Shown here piece after piece: positions 3,091 through 13,161 of a DNA stretch of 64,000 nt; position 1 is the stretch's first letter, and each line of letters begins with the position of its first letter. A program made the translations under genes and the position numbers. A model generated the notes under the pieces. That model worked only from the letters and a program-made list of their open reading frames with translations. It did not search any database and was not told where the DNA came from. The stretch comes from Streptomyces sp. SCUT-3 (lineage in GTDB: Bacteria; Actinomycetota; Actinomycetes; Streptomycetales; Streptomycetaceae), in contig NZ_CP046907.1 of the NCBI RefSeq assembly GCF_014083985.1, forward strand, positions 4,564,501-4,628,500, given 5' to 3'.

Positions 3091-3298
3091 AGTGACCACC
3101 CTCCCGACACGCCGAGGAACCTGACGGGCGGCCGGATTCGTCCTGCTGGTGTGGCCCGGGCACCGGTCCGTGGGGCAGGCTCTTCCCGGGCGGCACCCAC
3201 CCGGCGCGGTCCGCCCCCTCCGGGGGCCGGCCGTTCCGCTCCGGGGCCCGGCACCACGGGCGGCACACGCACGGCGAGCAAGGCACGAAGGGCACCTC

Positions 3299-4327
3299 AT
3301 GGCGCAGGCGAGCACGACGGAAGCGGCGACGGACGGACACGGGTCCGGCCTCCCCTCCCCGGGACCGTCCGGCCGTCCCCGGTGGCGGGACGGGCGGACG
3401 TGGCGGCGCGGCCGGGTGGTCGCGGCCCTGGCGCTCCTGGTATCGCTGGTCATGGCCTTCCACTCCGGCATCCCCAACGACATCGGCAACCTCGGCAGCC
3501 TGACCGAGACCTTCCTGCCCTGGCTGGGGCTGGCCGTGCCGATCCTGCTCCTGGCGGCCCTGCTGCGCCGCTCCGCGACCGCGCTGGTCGCGCTCGTGCT
3601 GCCGGCCTACGCGTGGGTCCACCTCTTCGGCGGCCTCACCCTGGACAAGGCGGAGGCCCGCGGCAGCGGCGACCTGACGGTCCTCACCCACAACGTCGAC
3701 GCCGCCAACACCGACTACGACCGCACCGTGCGCGAGGTGATCGCCTCCGGCGCCGACGTGGTGGCCCTGCAGGAGCTCACCGAGGCGGCCGTCCCGGAGT
3801 ACGGGAACGGGCTGGCCGCCTCCTACCCGTACCGGGCGGTCGAGGGGACCGTCGGGCTGTGGAGCAAGTACCCGCTCGACGACACCGACGAGGTCGACAT
3901 CGGCCTGGGCTGGACCCGGGCGCTGCGCTCCACCGCGGCCACCCCCGAGGGCCCGGTCGCCTTCTACGTGGCCCACCTGCCCTCGGTGCGGGTCAAGGTC
4001 GACGCCGGCTTCACCGCCGACCGGCGGGACCGCAGCGCCGAGTTGCTGGGCGAGGCCATCGTGGACGACCCGGTGGGGCAGGTCGTCCTGCTCGGCGACC
4101 TCAACGGCACGATGAACGACCGCAGTCTGGCCCCGGTGACCTCCCAGATGCGCTCGGCCCAGGGCGCCGCGGGCGACGGGTTCGGCTTCAGCTGGCCGTC
4201 CTCGTTCCCGGTGACCAGGATCGACCAGATCATGACCAAGGGGATCGACCCGGTCTCCTCGTGGGTGCTGGAGGACTCCGGCAGCGACCACCTCCCCCTC
4301 GCCGCCGAGCTGCGGTTCCGGCAGTAG
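3299..4327 (+). CDS. Membrane-anchored endonuclease/exonuclease/phosphatase (EEP) family protein
   Basis: 342 residues. A polar N-terminus is followed by three hydrophobic segments (about residues 40-120, e.g. VVAALALLVSLVMAF and LVALVLPAYAWVHLFGG). An EEP-fold catalytic domain comes next, probably facing outward. Active-site signatures are present: LTVLTHNVDAAN (catalytic Asn), ALQEL (metal-binding Glu), VVLLGDLNGTMND (Asp/Asn) and SGSDHLPLAAEL (catalytic Asp-His). The fold covers DNases, phosphoinositide phosphatases and sphingomyelinase-like enzymes; the membrane anchor favours a phosphodiester or lipid substrate, which is inference. The ATG is chosen over an upstream frame extension because GAAGG sits 7 bases before it. 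Confidence 0.85.
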   Translation: MAQASTTEAATDGHGSGLPSPGPSGRPRWRDGRTWRRGRVVAALALLVSLVMAFHSGIPNDIGNLGSLTETFLPWLGLAVPILLLAALLRRSATALVALVLPAYAWVHLFGGLTLDKAEARGSGDLTVLTHNVDAANTDYDRTVREVIASGADVVALQELTEAAVPEYGNGLAASYPYRAVEGTVGLWSKYPLDDTDEVDIGLGWTRALRSTAATPEGPVAFYVAHLPSVRVKVDAGFTADRRDRSAELLGEAIVDDPVGQVVLLGDLNGTMNDRSLAPVTSQMRSAQGAAGDGFGFSWPSSFPVTRIDQIMTKGIDPVSSWVLEDSGSDHLPLAAELRFRQ

Positions 4328-4414
4328 GGGCCCCGCGGTCCCGGCCCGGGGGGCCCGCGGTCCCGGCCCGGGCGGCCGCCGGGGTTCCGGCCCGGGGGGC
4401 CGCCGGGCGGGCGC

Positions 4415-5788
4415 TCAGCCCGGGACGAGTGCGTCCCACCGGGCCCGGGTCGGGCCGTCGTGCTCCGGGGAGAAGTCCGGGTGGGCGGCCAGCCAGGCGG
4501 TGACGTGCCGGTCCACCTCGTCGGTGCCGTAGGCGTCCTGGGCCTGTCGCAGGAGGTGGCGTACCTGGGCCCGGGCCCTCATGACCACGGGGTCCTCGAA
4601 GGCGCAGACGGCCAGGGCGGCGGCCCGCCGGTCCGGGGGCGGCGGGTCCTCGGCGAGGCGCTCTCCGTTGGCGCGGTCGGCCGTCACCTGCGCGTCGAAC
4701 CACGGGCGGAGGGTGCGTACCGCCCAGGTGTGGTGGACGACGGGGTCCGCGGCGATCCGGTCGGCACTGGCGGCGAGGTGCTGGGCGGCGAGCAGGCCGA
4801 GGGCCGCGCCGTGGCCGAAGGTGGGATTGGTGTGGATGAGGCTGTCCCCGGCGTTGACCAGGCCGGTGACGACGGGCCCGTCGTCGTCGACGAGGGCGGT
4901 CCAGCGGTTGTCCAGGCCGGCCATCGCCAGGACGGCCGACTGCGGTTCGGGGTCCAGGCCGAGCCAGGCGGCGGTGGCGGGGAAGAGGCGGGCGGCGGCC
5001 TCGAACACGGCGGGGTCGGTGAGCGCGCCGCGGGTCGGGTCGCCCGTGGAGAGCACCAGGCTCACCGCGAAGGTGTCGTTGTCGGAGGGGAAGACGCCGG
5101 CGAACGCGAACGACGAGGTCGAGCCGGTCTTCACCCGCCCGGGGTCGCGCGGGCCGTCGGCACGCAGGCGGTACCAGCGGCACAGGTAGGCGATCCCGGC
5201 GCGGTGGCTGTCGACCACGGGCGGGCGGCAGCCGGCCGCGGCCAGCCAGCCGGGAACCGGCGAGCGACGACCGGACGCGTCGACGACGAGGTCCGCCCGG
5301 TGCACCTCCTCGCCCACCCGCACGCCGGTGACCCGGGCAGGGTCGCCCTCCTCGACGGTGAGGCCGTGCACCCGGCGGCCCAGCCGCACGTCGACGGTGC
5401 GTTCCCGCCGCACGGCCGCGGCCAGGGCGGCCTCCAGCACGATGCGGCGGGTCCGCAGGGTCACCAGGTCCTCGTCGCCGGCCCGGTGCGGCGGGTGTTC
5501 GTCGAACCAGTCGAACTCGTGGTACTCCCGCGCTCCGCGGGCCAGCAGGTCCGCGTGGACGTCGGGGGCCTCGGCGAGCAGTACGGTGCGCACGGGCGCC
5601 AGGAACGAGTGGGGGTGGACGGCCTGCGGGGTCCGGGGCCTGTCCCAGTGGAAGAAGTCCCGGTCCGGGTCCTCCCCGGCCTGCCGCGCGTCCTGCTCGA
5701 ACAACGTGACCGTGTGGCCCCGCCGCCCGAGCATGAGCGCCGTCCCCAGCCCGCTGACACCCCCGCCGATCACCGCAACCCGCACCAC
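4415..5788 (-). CDS. FAD-dependent oxidoreductase (monooxygenase/halogenase-like fold)
   Basis: 457 residues. The N-terminus is a Rossmann dinucleotide-binding motif (VAVIGGGVSGLGTALMLGRRG) followed by an acidic beta-2 end. LVVDASGRRSPVPGWL is the mid-protein FAD contact. The second GD motif region reads GDSLIHTNPTFGHGAALGL and matches flavin monooxygenases related to geranylgeranyl reductase and tryptophan halogenases. The diagnostic halogenase WxWxIP motif is not seen, so a halogenase call is not supported. It starts with tandem GTG codons behind GGGGAG. It converges on the EEP gene and is a single gene with no pathway partners nearby. The substrate is unknown. Confidence 0.82.
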   Translation of the reverse strand: MVRVAVIGGGVSGLGTALMLGRRGHTVTLFEQDARQAGEDPDRDFFHWDRPRTPQAVHPHSFLAPVRTVLLAEAPDVHADLLARGAREYHEFDWFDEHPPHRAGDEDLVTLRTRRIVLEAALAAAVRRERTVDVRLGRRVHGLTVEEGDPARVTGVRVGEEVHRADLVVDASGRRSPVPGWLAAAGCRPPVVDSHRAGIAYLCRWYRLRADGPRDPGRVKTGSTSSFAFAGVFPSDNDTFAVSLVLSTGDPTRGALTDPAVFEAAARLFPATAAWLGLDPEPQSAVLAMAGLDNRWTALVDDDGPVVTGLVNAGDSLIHTNPTFGHGAALGLLAAQHLAASADRIAADPVVHHTWAVRTLRPWFDAQVTADRANGERLAEDPPPPDRRAAALAVCAFEDPVVMRARAQVRHLLRQAQDAYGTDEVDRHVTAWLAAHPDFSPEHDGPTRARWDALVPG

Positions 5789-6059
5789 TGAAGCTCCCCT
5801 TCGCGTCGTGTTGCGGAACGACCCTACTGTTCGGCGGTCTCCGGTCGGGAACCCGCGTCGTCCACCGCATGCGACGCGTTCGCAAAGGGGTGTTCACCGG
5901 GGACGGGCATCGGCATGACACTGGGCGCGCCGGCTGCCGGCCCGCTCACCGGCCGCGCCCTGCGCCCGACCCCGTACGGCTCGCCGGCCGCTCTCGCCGC
6001 CGTCCTGCTGCGGGGACGACGGCCGGGGCCGCCGGGGGGGGCCGGCAGCCCCGGGGAGG

Positions 6060-9000
6060 TCAGCCCGTCTGCAGGCAGGAGGGGCCCAGGAGGGCCTTGA
6101 GGTCGCCGAACAGCGCCGGGTCGGCGCTCACCCGGTGCCGGTCCAGCCTCAGTACGGTGGTCGAGCGGACCCCTTCCAGCCTGACCCGCACCTCGGTGTT
6201 GCCGCGGTGCTGGCTGAGGACGTCGCCGAGCCGGGCCACCAGCGGCGGGGTGACCTTCAGCGAGGGGATGGTGATCGTCACCGGCGCGTCCACCCCGGCG
6301 TCGGACAGGTCCGGGACGGCCAGTTCCATCGCCACCAGCCGGGGCACGTCCTCGCGCTTGTCCAGCCGCCCCTTGACGAAGACGACCGCGTCCTCGACCA
6401 GCTGGGTGGAGACCAGCTGGTAGGTGGCGGGGAAGAACATGCAGTCGATGGAGCCGGCCAGGTCCTCCACGGTGGCGATGGCCCAGGCGTTGCCCTGCTT
6501 GGTCATCTTGCGCTGCAGGCCGGTGATGAGGCCGCCGACGGTGACGATCGCGCCGTCGGCGTGCTCGCCGCCGGTCAGCTGCGAGATCGCCGCGTCGGAC
6601 CGGTCGTTGAGGACGTGCTCGATGCCGAACAGCGGGTGGTCGGAGACGTACAGGCCGAGCATCTCGCGCTCCTGGGAGAGCAGGAACCGCTTGTCCCACT
6701 CGTCCTCGCCGATCGGGGTGTCGAGACCGAAGCTGGGACCGGAGGCGTCTTCGTCCCCGCCGAGGTCGCCGAAGAGGTCGAACTGCCCCTCGGCCTCCTT
6801 GCGCTTGACCTGCACGACGTTGTCGACCATCGACTCGAAGACCGCGGACAGGCCCTTGCGGGTGTGGCCGAGGCCGTCGAAGCCGCCCGCCTTGATCATC
6901 GATTCGATGGTGCGCTTGTTGCAGACCACGGCCTCGACCTTGTCGAGGAAGTCGGGGAAGTCGGAGTACTTCCCCTTCTCCTTGCGGCACTTGACGATGG
7001 AGTCGACGACGTTGGCGCCGACGTTGCGCACCGCGGTCAGGCCGAAGACGATCGTGTCGTCGCCGCGCGGCGTGAAGTTGGCCTCGGACTCGTTGACGTC
7101 CGGGGGGAGGACCTTGATGCCCATGCGGCGGCACTCGTTGAGGTAGAGCGCCATCTTGTCCTTGTCGTCCTTGACGGATGTCAGGAGCGCGGCCATGTAC
7201 TCGGCCGGGTAGTTGGCCTTGAGGTAGGCGGTCCAGTACGACACCAGGCCGTACGCGGCCGAGTGGGCCTTGTTGAAGGCGTAGCCGGCGAAGGGCACCA
7301 GCACGTCCCACACGGCCTGGATCGCCTCGTCGGAGTAGCCCCGTTCGCGGCAGCCCGCCCGGAAGGGCACGAACTCCTTGTCGAGGACCTCCTTCTTCTT
7401 CTTGCCCATCGCGCGGCGCAGCAGGTCGGCCTGGCCGAGGGTGTAGCCGGCCAGCACCTGCGCGGCTTTTTGCACCTGCTCCTGGTAGACGATCAGGCCG
7501 TAGGTGACGTCGAGGACCTCGCGCAGCGGTTCCTCGAGTTCGGGGTGGATCGGGGTGATCTCCTGCTGGCCGTTCTTGCGCAGGGCGTAGTTGATGTGGG
7601 AGTTCATGCCCATCGGCCCGGGCCGGTACAGGGCCGAGACGGCGGAGATGTCCTCGAAGTTGTCGGGCTTCATCATGCGCAGCAGTGAGCGCATCGGGCC
7701 GCCGTCGAACTGGAAGACGCCCAGGGTGTCGCCGCGGGCGAGGAGGGCGTAGGTGGCCGGGTCGTCCAGGGGCAGGGAGAGCAGTTCGAGGTCGATGCCC
7801 TTGTTGGCCTTGATGGCCTTCTGGGCGTCGTCCATGATCGTCAGGTTGCGCAGGCCGAGGAAGTCCATCTTCAGCAGGCCCAGCGACTCGCAGCTGGGGT
7901 AGTCCCACTGGGTGACGACGGCGCCGTCGTTCTTGGGGGAGAAGATCGGCACGTGGTCGACCAGCGGCTCGCTGGACATGATGACGCCGGCCGCGTGCAC
8001 GCCCATCTGCCGCACCAGGCCCTCGATGCCGCGCGCCGAGTCGATCACCTTGGTGACGTCCGGCTCGTTCTCGTACATCGCCCGGACCTCGGCGGCCTCG
8101 CTGTAGCGCGGGTGCTCGGGGTCGGTGATGCCGGAGAGCGGGATGCCCTTGCCCATCACGTCCGCGGGCATGGCCTTGGTGATCCGGTCGCCCATGGCGA
8201 ACGGGTAGCCCAGCACCCGCGCGGAGTCCTTGATCGCGGCCTTGGCCTTGATGGTGCCGTAGGTGGCGATCTGCGCCACCTTGTCGGAGCCGTACTTCTC
8301 GGTGACGTACCGGATGACCTCGCCGCGCCTGCGCTCGTCGAAGTCGATGTCGACATCGGGCATGGACACGCGCTCGGGGTTGAGGAACCGCTCGAAGATC
8401 AGGCCGTGCGGAACGGGGTCCAGGTCGGTGATGCCCATGGCGTAGGCGACGATCGAACCGGCCGCCGAGCCGCGGCCCGGACCGACGGCGATGCCGTTGT
8501 TCTTCGCCCACATGATGAAGTCGGCGACCACGAGGAAGTAGCCGGGGAACCCCATCTGGATGATGGTGTCCATCTCGTACTCGGCGAGCTTCTGCCGGTC
8601 CTCGGGGATCCCGCCGGGGAAGCGGCGGGCCATGCCGCGCGCCACCTCCTCGCGGAACCAGGTGACCTCGGTGTACCCCTCGGGCACGTCGAAGCGGGGC
8701 ATCAGGTTCTTCGGCTCGAACATGCCCGAGATGTCGACCCGGTCGGCGATCAGCAGCTGGCTGTTGCGGCAGCCCTCCTGCCAGGCGTCGGAGGAGTCGA
8801 TCGCGTACATCTCGGCGGCCGACTTCAGGTAGTAGCCGGAGCCGTCGAACTTGAACCGGTCCGGGTCGGAGAGGTTGGAGCCGGTCTGGATGCACAGCAG
8901 AGTGTCGTGTGCCGCCGACTCGTGCTCGTAGGTGTAGTGCGAGTCGTTGGTGACGACGAACGGCGCGCCGATCTTCTTGGAGATCTCCATCAGGCCGTCG

Positions 9001-9605
9001 CGGGCGCGGCGGTCGATGTCGATGCCGTGGTCCATGATCTCGACGAAGAAGTTCTCCTTGCCGAAGATGTCCTGGTACTCCCCGGCCGCCTTGATCGCCT
9101 CGTCCATCTGGCCCAGGCGGATCCTGGTGGAGATCTCCCCCGAGGGGCAGCCGGTGGTGGCCATCAGGCCCTCGGCGTACTCCGAGAGCAGCTCGCGGTC
9201 CATGCGGGGCTTGCGGAAGAAGCCCTCCAGGCTGGCCCGGGACTGCGCGCGGAAGAGGTTGTGCAGGCCGGTGTTGTTCCGCGCCCACATCGTCATGTGG
9301 GTGTAGGCGCCCGCACCGGAGACGTCGTCCCCCTTCTGATGAGGGGCGCCCCACTTGACCGGCTTGTTGTGGTAGCGCGACTCCGGTGCCAGGTAGGCCT
9401 CGATGCCCATGACGGGGGTGACCCCGGCGTCCTTGGCCTGGTGGAAGAAGTCGTAGGCGCCGTGCAGGTTGCCGTGGTCGGTGATCGCCACGTGCGTCAT
9501 GCCCATCTCGTTGCACGCCTTGAACATGTCCTTCAACCGCGCCGCACCGTCCAGGAGCGAGTACTGGGTGTGGACGTGCAGGTGCGTGAACGGCTGGTTG
9601 GTCAC
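6060..9605 (-). CDS. dnaE: DNA polymerase III alpha subunit DnaE1 (replicative polymerase)
   Basis: 1,181 residues, the usual length for actinobacterial DnaE1. It is the catalytic core of the replicative polymerase III holoenzyme. Domains in order: N-terminal PHP domain (HLHVHTQYSLLDG, then MTHVAITDHGNLHGAYDF with metal ligands); polymerase palm with GPGRGSAAGSIVAYA and the catalytic Asp motif PDVDIDFDERRR; fingers and thumb (MKPDNFEDISAVSALYRPGP); helix-hairpin-helix region; C-terminal OB-fold (VGGLITGLQRKMTKQG) and tau-binding end. An upstream ATG extends the frame by 23 codons, but the family start is MTNQPFTHLHVHTQYS, here GTG at 9603-9605, with GGAAGG eight bases upstream. It appears monocistronic, with long non-coding DNA on both sides. 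Confidence 0.97.
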   Translation of the reverse strand: MTNQPFTHLHVHTQYSLLDGAARLKDMFKACNEMGMTHVAITDHGNLHGAYDFFHQAKDAGVTPVMGIEAYLAPESRYHNKPVKWGAPHQKGDDVSGAGAYTHMTMWARNNTGLHNLFRAQSRASLEGFFRKPRMDRELLSEYAEGLMATTGCPSGEISTRIRLGQMDEAIKAAGEYQDIFGKENFFVEIMDHGIDIDRRARDGLMEISKKIGAPFVVTNDSHYTYEHESAAHDTLLCIQTGSNLSDPDRFKFDGSGYYLKSAAEMYAIDSSDAWQEGCRNSQLLIADRVDISGMFEPKNLMPRFDVPEGYTEVTWFREEVARGMARRFPGGIPEDRQKLAEYEMDTIIQMGFPGYFLVVADFIMWAKNNGIAVGPGRGSAAGSIVAYAMGITDLDPVPHGLIFERFLNPERVSMPDVDIDFDERRRGEVIRYVTEKYGSDKVAQIATYGTIKAKAAIKDSARVLGYPFAMGDRITKAMPADVMGKGIPLSGITDPEHPRYSEAAEVRAMYENEPDVTKVIDSARGIEGLVRQMGVHAAGVIMSSEPLVDHVPIFSPKNDGAVVTQWDYPSCESLGLLKMDFLGLRNLTIMDDAQKAIKANKGIDLELLSLPLDDPATYALLARGDTLGVFQFDGGPMRSLLRMMKPDNFEDISAVSALYRPGPMGMNSHINYALRKNGQQEITPIHPELEEPLREVLDVTYGLIVYQEQVQKAAQVLAGYTLGQADLLRRAMGKKKKEVLDKEFVPFRAGCRERGYSDEAIQAVWDVLVPFAGYAFNKAHSAAYGLVSYWTAYLKANYPAEYMAALLTSVKDDKDKMALYLNECRRMGIKVLPPDVNESEANFTPRGDDTIVFGLTAVRNVGANVVDSIVKCRKEKGKYSDFPDFLDKVEAVVCNKRTIESMIKAGGFDGLGHTRKGLSAVFESMVDNVVQVKRKEAEGQFDLFGDLGGDEDASGPSFGLDTPIGEDEWDKRFLLSQEREMLGLYVSDHPLFGIEHVLNDRSDAAISQLTGGEHADGAIVTVGGLITGLQRKMTKQGNAWAIATVEDLAGSIDCMFFPATYQLVSTQLVEDAVVFVKGRLDKREDVPRLVAMELAVPDLSDAGVDAPVTITIPSLKVTPPLVARLGDVLSQHRGNTEVRVRLEGVRSTTVLRLDRHRVSADPALFGDLKALLGPSCLQTG

Positions 9606-9986
9606 CGAACGGGCCTTCCGAAGGAGGGTCGGACTGGGACAGCGTTCCGACAGGGCCGTCCCGGGGGGACGCACACAGTGTCGGAAGCATCGACCCTATA
9701 CCGCTCCAGCCCCGGCGGAGCCTCCCCCCGCACGCCCCTCACGCTTCCTCCGCGCCGGTCGTTTCCGCAGGTCAGCACGGTTTTCCGGGGAAGAGGCCAA
9801 GGTCAGCGGAGTGCGGAATCCGACACGGAACGGCGACGCGTTCCCGCTGCAGCCCGGACGTGCGGGGTGGTGGTGCGGTGAGGCGGGGGTGCTCGGTTCC
9901 TTGTGCCCGGTGCCCGGTGCCCGGTGCCCGGTGCTCGGTTCCTGGTTCCCGGTATTGCGGTGGCTGGTGGTTCGGTGGTGCGGGTC
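9606..9986. other. Non-coding stretch upstream of dnaE
   Basis: This is the dnaE promoter side of a 1.6-kb gene-free region. I see no convincing ORF. The stretch includes a heptamer tandem array at 9904-9938 and then G/T-rich text leading to the left arm of a large inverted repeat. The dnaE promoter should lie within about 150 bases of 9605, but I cannot assign -35/-10 boxes with confidence. Confidence 0.5.
9904..9938 (+). repeat. Heptamer tandem repeat (TGCCCGG)x4 plus one degenerate copy
   Basis: Four exact copies of TGCCCGG are followed by TGCTCGG, head to tail, just outside the left arm of the large inverted repeat. Such arrays mutate by slippage and mark non-coding DNA. Confidence 0.85.
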
Positions 9987-10330
9987 ACGGCCGGGGTCGG
10001 TTCGGTGGGGCAGTTCGCTTTCGTTGCCGGGTGCGGGCCGTCGTCGCGGCCTCCGGCCGCAAAGAAGGGCGGGCTGCGAGGGGGAGGGGTGCGGGCGGGG
10101 CTTGTTCGCTGGGTGGCGGCTGGTCCTCGGTGGCGGTCACCGCGCCGGGAACGCTGCGCGCCCCCGGGTGGGCGGTCGGCGCCGCCTCGTCACCGTGCGG
10201 GCCGTTCCCGATGCCCGTCACTACTCGGCTGGTGCTTCGCACCCGTGGCGGGCCCGACCGGTCAAGCGCCGGCCCGGTGGGGCGGGGATCCGGCCCGGTG
10301 GGGCGGCCCGGCCCGGACGGGCGGCGGCCC
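9987..10330 (+). repeat. Left arm of the large inverted repeat
   Basis: About 344 bases that reappear in reverse complement at 10723-11067 with only a handful of substitutions, clustered at both ends of the arm. Identity runs unbroken from the CAGTTCGCTTTCG stretch through the TCAAGCG stretch. Both arms therefore give the same spurious peptide text when translated outward-in. No start codon with a Shine-Dalgarno or codon bias supports a real gene. See the matching arm and core entries. Confidence 0.92.
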
Positions 10331-10722
10331 GGCGCGGTCGGGCGGCCCGGCCCGGTGGGTCGGCCCGGCGAGGTCGGGCGGCCCGGCCCGGTGGGTCGGC
10401 CCGGCGAGGTGGCGCAGGGCTGTGGTCTCCCCGTTCGCGGGGCTGTGGCCTCCCGCCCGTAGGAGTGGGGGAGGGGCGAGCTCGGCGGTTGGGCCATTGG
10501 GGTGGTCCGATTACGGTTTGCCGCCGCACTTTTGGCAGGCGTCCCCCATGTGGCCCAATTTCTTGCTCCATGTGAGGGACGAAAGCAGCCCGTGTGGAAG
10601 CGGCTGCGAAAAGTGCGGGGCCAAACCGTAGAAACGGCCGGGAAGCGCGGTGGCAAACCGTCGATTCCCCTGTCGCATCCGCCTTCCTGCGCAATCTCGG
10701 TGCGAGCGGAGTGGGGCCTACT
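10331..10722. other. Core of the inverted-repeat element: tandem G/C repeats and an inner hairpin
   Basis: The first ~80 bases are imperfect ~36-base tandem repeats of GGCCCGGCCCGGTGGGTCGG text. The rest is noticeably less GC-rich and holds a second, inner inverted repeat (10512-10539 against 10601-10630) around a ~61-base loop. Three copies of an (A/G)CAAACCG-type motif occur. In the right frames the inner arms encode short C-x2-C-G-x-K-P termini on both strands: GDACQKCGGKP ends at 10511 on the minus strand, and SGCEKCGAKP ends at 10631 on the plus strand. I cannot show that either is translated; a structured RNA or a transposition substrate is as likely. Confidence 0.6.
10512..10630. repeat. 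Inner inverted repeat of the element
   Basis: The left arm at 10512-10539 begins TACGGTTTG and contains CGCACTTTT. The right arm at 10601-10630 is its complement with scattered mismatches (TGCGAAAAGTGCGGGGCC, ending CAAACCGTA). The hairpin would have a stem of about 28 bp and a 61-base loop. A third partial copy of the right-arm end, GGCAAACCG, lies at 10652-10660. Confidence 0.75.
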
Positions 10723-11067
10723 GGGCCACCGCCCGACCGGGCCGGGCCGCCCCACCGGGCCGGCTCCCCGCCCCACCGGGCCGTCGCTTGACCGGTCGGG
10801 CCCGCCACGGGTGCGAAGCACCAGCCGAGTAGTGACGGGCATCGGGAACGGCCCGCACGGTGACGAGGCGGCGCCGACCGCCCACCCGGGGGCGCGCAGC
10901 GTTCCCGGCGCGGTGACCGCCACCGAGGACCAGCCGCCACCCAGCGAACAAGCCCCGCCCGCACCCCTCCCCCTCGCAGCCCGCCCTTCTTTGCGGCCGG
11001 AGGCCGCGACGACGGCCCGCACCCGGCAACGAAAGCGAACTGCCCCACCGAACCGGCCCCGCACCGT
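10723..11067 (-). repeat. Right arm of the large inverted repeat
   Basis: Reverse complement of 9987-10330, near-identical. Substitutions I can place include one in the TCAAGCG(C/A)CGG stretch, one in GGGGA(T/G)CCGG, two near the inner end and a few at the outer end. The arm stops 26 bases before the perfect stem-loop downstream of nadE, so the element sits exactly between the nadE 3' end and the dnaE 5' side. Confidence 0.92.
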
Positions 11068-11092
11068 TGTCCCTGGGCTCACGAAGGTCCTG

Positions 11093-11146
11093 GCGGCGGC
11101 CCGGCCTGGCGGTGGGCACGGGCCCACCGCCAGGCCGGGCCGCCGC
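11093..11146. terminator. Perfect 25-bp stem-loop downstream of nadE
   Basis: Arms 11093-11117 and 11122-11146 are exact complements around a four-base loop (ACGG), about 80 bases past the nadE stop. There is no U-tract, as is usual for Streptomyces 3' hairpins. It is followed by further self-complementary GGGCCCACCG text up to about 11200. It probably ends nadE transcripts and may insulate the repeat element. Confidence 0.75.
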
Positions 11147-11225
11147 TGGCACGGGCCCACCGCTGGGCCCGGCCCACCGCCGGGCCGGGCCCGCAGCCAA
11201 CCCCCGGCCTGGCGGCCCAGGTGGC

Positions 11226-12977
11226 TCAGGTGTGTTCGCGCCAGCGGTTGGTGATGGGCAGGCGGCGGTCCTTGCCGAAGCCCTTCGGTGAGATCTTGGT
11301 GCCCGGCGGGTACTGGCGCCGCTTGTACTCGGCGGTGTCCACCATCCGCAGGACCCGGCTGACCAGCTCCGGCTCGAAGCCGGCGGCCACGATGGCGTCC
11401 CGGCCCCGGTCGCGGTCCACGTACAGCTCCAGGACCTGGTCCAGCAGCTCGTAGTCGGGCAGCGAGTCGGTGTCCAGCTGGCCCGGGCGCAGTTCGGCGC
11501 TGGGCGGCTTGGAGATGGAGTTCTCCGGGATCGGCGGGGTCAGCCCGCGGTCGGCAGCGGCCTTGTTGCGCCAGCGGCACAGCCGCCACACTGCCGTCTT
11601 CCACACGTCCTTGATGGGGGCGAAGCCGCCGACCGCGTCGCCGTAGAGGGTGGAGTAGCCGCAGGCCAGCTCGGACTTGTTGCCGGTGGCCAGGACCAGG
11701 TGGCCCTCCTGGTTGGACAGGGCCATCAGTGTGGTGCCGCGCAGCCGCGCCTGGAGGTTCTCCTCGGCCAGACCGGTCAGCGACAGCTGCCCCATGTAGG
11801 CGTCGAACATCTGGCCGATGGGGACGGTGCGGTAGTTCAGCCCGGTGCGGCGGGCCAGGTCCGCGGCGTCGTCCATCGAGTGGTCGGAGGAGTAGCGCGA
11901 GGGCATGGAGACGCCGTGGACGTTCTCCGCGCCGATCGCGTCGCAGGCGATGGCGGCGACGAGGGCGGAGTCGATGCCGCCGGACAGGCCCAGGAGCACC
12001 GAGCGGAAGCCGTTCTTGGCCAGGTAGGCGCGCAGGCCGACGACCAGGGCCGTGTAGACCTCCTCGTCGTCGTCCAGCCGCTCGGCCTGACCGGGCACCA
12101 CCGCGGCGGCGGCCGGCTCGTCCGGGGCGGCGGAGATCGTGCGGTGGTCGACGGTGAGCCCGTCCCGCAGGGGCCCGGAGGGCACCTCGCCCGCGGCGGG
12201 CAGGTCCAGGTCCACCAGGACGCAGCCCTCCTCGAACTGCGGGGCGCGCGTGATCACCTCCCCGTCGGCGTCCACGACGATCGAGTCGCCGTCGAAGACC
12301 AGCTCGTCCTGGCCGCCGATCATCGCCAGGTAGGCGATGGGGCAGCCGGCCTCCCGGGCGCGGCGGCTCACCAGCTCCAGCCGGACGTCGTCCTTGCACT
12401 GCTCGTAGGGGGAGGCGTTGATCGACAGCAGCAGGCCCGCGCCGGCCTCGCGCGCGGCGGGCACCCGCCCGCCGTCCTGCCACAGGTCCTCGCAGATGGC
12501 CAGGGCCACGTCCACTCCGCGCACCCGCACCACCGGCAGGGTGTCGCCGGGCACGAAGTAGCGGAACTCGTCGAAGACGCCGTAGTTCGGCAGGTGGTGC
12601 TTGGCGAAGGACAGCACCACCTCGCCGCCGTGGAGCACCGCCGCCGCGTTCTGCGGCGCGCCGGCCGGCTGCCCGTACCGGGGCTGTGCCCTCTCGCTGC
12701 GGTCGAGGTAGCCGACGACCACCGGGACCTCGCCCAGGCCCTCGGCGGCGAGCTGCCCGGCGAGGGCGGTCAGCGCGGCGCGCGAGGCCTCCACGAAGGA
12801 GGAGCGCAGGGCCAGGTCCTCGACGGGGTAGCCGGTCAGCACCATCTCGGGGAACGCGACGAGGTGGGCTCCTTGCTCGACCGCGTGCCGGGTCCAGCGG
12901 AGCACCGATGCGCCGTTCCCGGCGAGGTCGCCGACGCAGGAATCGATCTGGTTCAGGGCGAGACGAAGTTGAGGCAC
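11226..12977 (-). CDS. nadE: Glutamine-dependent NAD+ synthetase NadE
   Basis: 583 residues, a two-domain enzyme converting deamido-NAD+ to NAD+ with ATP and glutamine. The N-terminal ~280 residues form a nitrilase-fold glutaminase: catalytic Glu in VAFPEMVLTGYP, Lys in FAKHHLPNYGVFDE, and Cys in VALAICEDLW. The C-terminal synthetase has the ATP P-loop LGLSGGIDSALVAAIACDA, followed by MPSRYSSDHS, GNKSELACGYSTLYGD and the KDVWKT region. The start is GTG at 12975-12977 (MPQLRLALNQID); longer in-frame extension upstream has no family similarity. It sits between a repeat-rich block and a divergently oriented metabolic cluster. Length and motifs are complete. Confidence 0.96.
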   Translation of the reverse strand: MPQLRLALNQIDSCVGDLAGNGASVLRWTRHAVEQGAHLVAFPEMVLTGYPVEDLALRSSFVEASRAALTALAGQLAAEGLGEVPVVVGYLDRSERAQPRYGQPAGAPQNAAAVLHGGEVVLSFAKHHLPNYGVFDEFRYFVPGDTLPVVRVRGVDVALAICEDLWQDGGRVPAAREAGAGLLLSINASPYEQCKDDVRLELVSRRAREAGCPIAYLAMIGGQDELVFDGDSIVVDADGEVITRAPQFEEGCVLVDLDLPAAGEVPSGPLRDGLTVDHRTISAAPDEPAAAAVVPGQAERLDDDEEVYTALVVGLRAYLAKNGFRSVLLGLSGGIDSALVAAIACDAIGAENVHGVSMPSRYSSDHSMDDAADLARRTGLNYRTVPIGQMFDAYMGQLSLTGLAEENLQARLRGTTLMALSNQEGHLVLATGNKSELACGYSTLYGDAVGGFAPIKDVWKTAVWRLCRWRNKAAADRGLTPPIPENSISKPPSAELRPGQLDTDSLPDYELLDQVLELYVDRDRGRDAIVAAGFEPELVSRVLRMVDTAEYKRRQYPPGTKISPKGFGKDRRLPITNRWREHT

Positions 12978-13161
12978 GGCTCCCAGCCTAATCGTCTCTT
13001 CGACGCGATCTTCCGCAGGCGGGTGCCGACGGATCCCGGCGATTCCGGTCCTTCCCGTTCCATACCGGCTCCGGCCTGCCGGTTCCCCGTGATCCCGGAC
13101 GCCCCGGTCGTCCACGCCCCGGATGTCCGCGCCCGAGCCGTCCCGGCCGCCCGGGCCAGGG

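Follow-up and report, generated by a model that had tools for sequence, protein, structure and literature searches.

An arm-core-arm repeat with near-identical inverted arms between nadE and a second dnaE gene of Streptomyces sp. SCUT-3

Within the window, i.e., the whole stretch of 64,000 nucleotides analyzed here (positions 4564501–4628500 of the Streptomyces sp. SCUT-3 genome, one contig of 6,075,149 bases), an element with long inverted arms lies between two minus-strand genes: dnaE (6060–9605), which encodes DNA polymerase III alpha and is the second copy in the genome, and nadE (11226–13115), which encodes NAD synthase. The left arm (9992–10330, plus strand) is G-rich on the plus strand (45.7% G, 6.2% A), and the right arm (10723–11061, minus strand) is its inverted copy. 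The arms comprise 339 nt each, are 392 nt apart, and are alike as inverted repeats at 334 of the 339 positions. The mismatches are located at 9997, 10269, 10289, 10317, and 10325, and the 271 nt from 9998 to 10268 contain no difference. The first-pass annotation had described near-identical opposed arms of approximately 344 bases around a centre of approximately 390 bases with its own 28-bp inverted repeat. Both descriptions are borne out, with 335/344 positions in agreement between 9987–10330 and 10723–11066 and with a 30-nt inner repeat (10512–10541 and 10601–10630, 87%) in the 392-nt centre. An inverted-repeat scan of the window (exact seed of 14, minimum of 60 nt) reported only this element and a 95-nt pair at 73%, and chance is therefore no serious explanation for the arms.

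The centre contains a core module of 188 nt (10478–10665, plus strand), which is present in four copies in the genome and in which a conserved imperfect hairpin (10511–10631, plus strand) has the outer stem TACGGTTTG / CAAACCGTA. G+C-rich repeats, mostly with an 18-base period, extend over the inner end of the left arm into the left spacer (10286–10414, plus strand). A G-quadruplex-like run is located at 10067–10100 on the G-rich strand of the left arm and recurs in all four arms of the two loci described below. The outer flank, referred to as flank F (9958–9991, plus strand), is also found to the right of the second copy of the element. Outside the element and downstream of nadE, a perfect inverted repeat of 25 nt, with 4 nt in its loop, occupies 11093–11146 and is followed by a degenerate second copy; our guess is that it is the nadE terminator, though it is absent from the list of the terminator scan.

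The nadE region was compared in 12 of 25 relatives with a nadE locus. An exonuclease/endonuclease-family gene (3302–4327 in the window) lies within approximately 2.3 kb of nadE in 10 of the 12; in nine of these it faces the 3′ side of nadE, matching the arrangement in the window, and in L076 it is on the other side. In L072 the gene is at the edge of the locus, approximately 10 kb from nadE, and no such gene was found in L079. None of the 12 relatives has dnaE at the nadE region; a search of 1.5-kb nadE flanks found no dnaE, but such flanks are too short to reveal even the dnaE of the window itself and are not counted as evidence. In the window, a gene for an FAD-dependent enzyme, dnaE, and the element separate the exonuclease/endonuclease-family gene from nadE (3302–13115).

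Copies of the element were sought throughout the genome, and the locus is not single-copy: two full copies and two further cores are present. The second full copy (copy 2) is located at approximately 559.7–561.1 kb, with a gene for an IS30-family transposase on one side and a TetR gene on the other. Its arms (3229–3518 and 4282–4571 of region L021) comprise 290 nt, of which 279 are alike, and the arms and core of this copy are 95–96% and 91–93% alike, respectively, to those of the window. The IS30-family element nearby (L021 1479–2960) has 28-nt terminal repeats (86%), lies approximately 0.27 kb from copy 2, and has terminal repeats that, judged by eye, are unlike the arm ends. Core-only copies are located at 5457108–5457294 (79%) and 542097–542213 (75%), and the genes on either side of the fourth core encode a flavohaemoglobin-like protein and a PLP enzyme. 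The arm yielded 16 matches in the genome, the long ones being the four arms only; among the short ones is a 75-base match of 76% at 533 kb. Core models R1 and R2 were each built from four sequences. The covariance model matched the four cores and their opposite strands, because the hairpin is nearly symmetric, and gave two more matches at E > 3.

The earlier statement that no transposase is present holds for the window element, as tested with Pfam in six frames across it. Furthermore, protein coding in general was considered and rejected: eight frames (six in the window and two in L021) have no Pfam match above the cutoff, the sole hit being a sub-threshold collagen match (E of 0.003), and the core copies differ by single-base indels and have no clear codon periodicity. 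Spurious hypothetical proteins could be annotated in repeats such as these, whose G+C-rich DNA is open in several frames. Beyond the genome, the core was not found in 199 other genomes of the family, in 393 other genomes of the class (overlapping sets), or in plasmids, and the arm was not found in the 199 family genomes or in plasmids. Between two and four candidates were scored per genome in these family and class searches, and weak relatives could be missed, because just two of the four cores of the genome itself came up in the class search and three of its four arms in the family arm search. The genus of G006, searched through 35 genomes without a positive control, yielded no copy of the whole element, nor did G006 itself, and the genus-level comparison took in the genome of the window alone. 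The earlier suggestion of a dispersed family stands within this genome, with two full and two core-only copies; no sign of the family was found in the other family and class genomes searched at this limited sensitivity.

A phage or plasmid origin was likewise rejected: 9900–11300 has no match in phages, the patterns of one core and one arm have none in viral contigs, core and arm have none in plasmids, and peptide readings of arm and core retrieved nothing from the plasmid collection. The first-pass suggestion of similar peptides among hypothetical proteins of Streptomyces thus found no confirmation among the plasmid sequences. Two pattern-scan matches, in MAGs named Tepidisphaera sp. and Bacteroidetes bacterium, were taken as chance. 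Against 30 other genomes, the core model gave one match (E of 0.006), which is a different hairpin repeat with GCAGTTCCCCGCGCCCC stems. This repeat is abundant in Streptomyces, is dispersed in the related genomes (L042 1520–1610; also L050, L075, and L111), and resembles the core loosely in its outer stem; kinship of the core to it was rejected, as the likeness seen by eye is too short. Among the records listed by a literature search, no title or abstract opening describes the element, which does not prove that no description exists. On the best reading, the element is a dispersed noncoding repeat that, as far as the searches reach, is confined to this lineage.

Comparison of the four arms is informative regarding their history. 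Among 282 gap-free columns, which leave out those where spacers and flanks diverge, 268 are invariant, six group the arms by locus, none groups them by position, and eight are singletons or other patterns. If each site were free among three splits, six of six in the locus split would have a probability of 0.0014, a value that ignores the linkage of neighbouring sites. Arms that had already been evolving separately when the element was copied would be expected to group by position, so that grouping by locus suggests that sequence has passed between the arms of a locus. Such exchange is thus supported by the sequence comparison. The two window arms differ at one of the 282 columns, the two arms of copy 2 at eight, and arms of different loci at 8–12. 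Exchange therefore appears recent in the window copy, with its 271 nt devoid of difference, and longer ago in copy 2. Strong homogenization is limited to the window copy, because the arms of copy 2 differ from each other approximately as much as arms of different loci do, and conversion at copy 2 would accordingly be old or rare, given eight differences in 282 columns within the locus. If the second arm had arisen independently at each locus, the same grouping by locus would be expected, yet the layout is common to both loci. The gene conversion proposed in the first-pass annotation is thus supported by six sites against none, strongly for the window arms (1/282) and weakly for those of copy 2 (8/282).

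The centre has probably been inverted. The left outer flank of the window element recurs next to the right arm of copy 2, on its outer side, in one exact run (9958–10024); 34 bases of this run are external to the window arm, and 44 (9958–10001) are external to the edge corresponding to the left arm of copy 2. At the left arm of copy 2 itself, the match to flank F extends zero bases outward. The core and left spacer have the same orientation in both full copies. Flank F on opposite sides, together with cores facing the same way, suggests that one core has probably been inverted, through a single inversion between the arms at one locus that flipped the centre, as judged from one comparison beside simple-sequence DNA. 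Between the full copies, arms and core are well conserved and spacers poorly; this pattern could reflect selection for a function outside the conversion reading.

We favour, with moderate confidence that the result for copy 2 lowers slightly, the interpretation that the element is a noncoding composite dispersed repeat whose arms exchange sequence and whose centre inverts, host recombination being the driver. The signs of ectopic conversion between the two dnaE genes of this genome, described below, speak for it. Briefly, a hairpin-forming core of approximately 190 nt would have become enclosed by a long inverted duplication, giving the arm-core-arm unit at two loci. Recombination or replication template switching would bring about pairing between the arms; some pairing events would copy one arm onto the other, accounting for the near-identity and, in the window copy, for its recency, and a crossover or a switch in the spacer between the arms would invert the centre. 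Rather than having an enzyme of its own, the element is probably acted on passively by the recombination of the cell. A more ambitious version would make it an enzyme-less bacterial "flip" element, in which host recombination homogenizes the arms and inverts the hairpin core while arms and core, including the G-quadruplex-like run, are both selected as DNA or RNA structure; this version is considered speculative and unlikely.

Parallels exist for both processes. In the human Y palindrome P6, arm conversion with occasional spacer inversion was reported from 378 chromosomes (PMC3723533). The favoured interpretation resembles the reported behaviour of P6 in that inverted arms are kept alike by conversion and the spacer is occasionally inverted; it differs in that the arms are 339 nt long, the host is a bacterium, and the behaviour is deduced from two loci rather than from 378 chromosomes (PMC3723533). 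If the interpretation is correct, the element is a small bacterial case of primate-palindrome behaviour, with converted arms and an inverting centre, in which two loci are directly comparable. Template switching has been reported between short inverted repeats in yeast genes (PMC8604942). As outlined there, it predicts both arm homogenization and spacer inversion, and both signs are found here, although the account given in that report concerns short inverted repeats of yeast genes, unlike the present element (PMC8604942). Like the REPINs and REP sequences associated with RAYT transposases (PMC3116915), the element consists of dispersed extragenic hairpins in a bacterial genome. By contrast, REPs are presented in that report as short, over-represented, and tied to RAYT (PMC3116915), whereas the core here is approximately 190 nt long and, with four copies, falls short of the high copy number of short palindromes by which REPINs are recognized.

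Several other explanations must be weighed. The element could be a non-autonomous MITE-like or foldback-like unit moved in trans by a transposase, with the arms as long terminal inverted repeats and the core as cargo, and it shares with MITEs inverted ends, the lack of a transposase frame, and the presence of more than one copy. Terminal inverted repeats, by which MITEs are recognized, are present in both full copies, and these copies occupy unrelated intergenic sites. Furthermore, the window copy lies in a dnaE-bearing stretch between genes that are neighbours in most of the relatives examined, and an IS30 copy lies near the second element. However, the ends of the two full copies are not alike, flank F being present on one side only, and this difference between copies, together with the lack of a clear target-site duplication and of a parent transposon among the sequences found, sets the element apart from MITEs. 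In the 30 bases outside both ends, whose true positions are uncertain, the longest shared exact word in either copy is 5–6 nt and does not occur at matching positions that could be called a duplication. The nadE loci of the 12 relatives lack dnaE and hence offer no one-to-one junction to be read as an empty site. No arm-length match exists in the genome beyond the four arms, in a search that a short shared end would escape, and the core is found without arms. Mobilization of this kind is therefore rated as rather unlikely. An assembly artefact, in which a collapsed or mirrored join made the second arm, is very improbable: long near-identical inverted repeats are a classical assembly trap, but the genome is one 6.08-Mb contig, and the layout recurs at the second locus, whose arms have diverged by approximately 5%, which makes misassembly unlikely.

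A reading of a different kind sees in the core a structured noncoding RNA or a cis-regulatory hairpin, and in the arms an additional long double-stranded stem or an insulator. The core of the window folds better than all 200 shuffles (z of −4.9), that of the third copy has a z of −3.8, and across the four cores 92.6% of hairpin cells pair, compared with 44–49% when the pairing is slid. Four of the 44 pairs change on both sides, the unpaired stretches are conserved too, and the four cores appear to sit outside coding-like frames. On the other hand, covariation among four sequences is weak: among 500 shuffles, the paired percentage is attained by 27, the covariation score by 44, the count of pairs changed on both sides by 164, and the count of further pair types by 391, and RNAalifold gave an unfavourable covariation term (+1.94). 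The genes next to the core copies differ, and the model of this near-symmetric core matches on both strands. Rfam gave no match to 9700–11300 up to an E of 1, and no promoter-like or terminator-like site was found with a sigma-70 consensus, which is ill suited to actinomycetes. A hairpin in the core is likely and selection on RNA is a putative reading of these folding results; as an explanation of the whole element, this reading is judged improbable.

The composite repeat is a real but modest genomic curiosity, and the duplicated dnaE next door may be the larger surprise. The other full-length dnaE of the genome (L112 9728–13357; N-terminal part at 4777733–4779331) is in the usual place, because its flanks match the dnaE flanks of 7/7 relatives compared. 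Over the N-terminal 535 residues, the dnaE of the window is 93% alike to that of G006 and at most 80% alike to all other matches listed, which suggests, on sequence likeness, that it was transferred from the lineage of G006. The second dnaE could be a putative resistance determinant against a DnaE-binding antibiotic such as nargenicin, which is reported to bind DnaE (PMC12671133). The two dnaE genes of the genome form a patchwork that ranges from 65% to 100% by 150-column block and includes identical runs of 275, 234, and 169 nt, and ectopic conversion between them has probably occurred.
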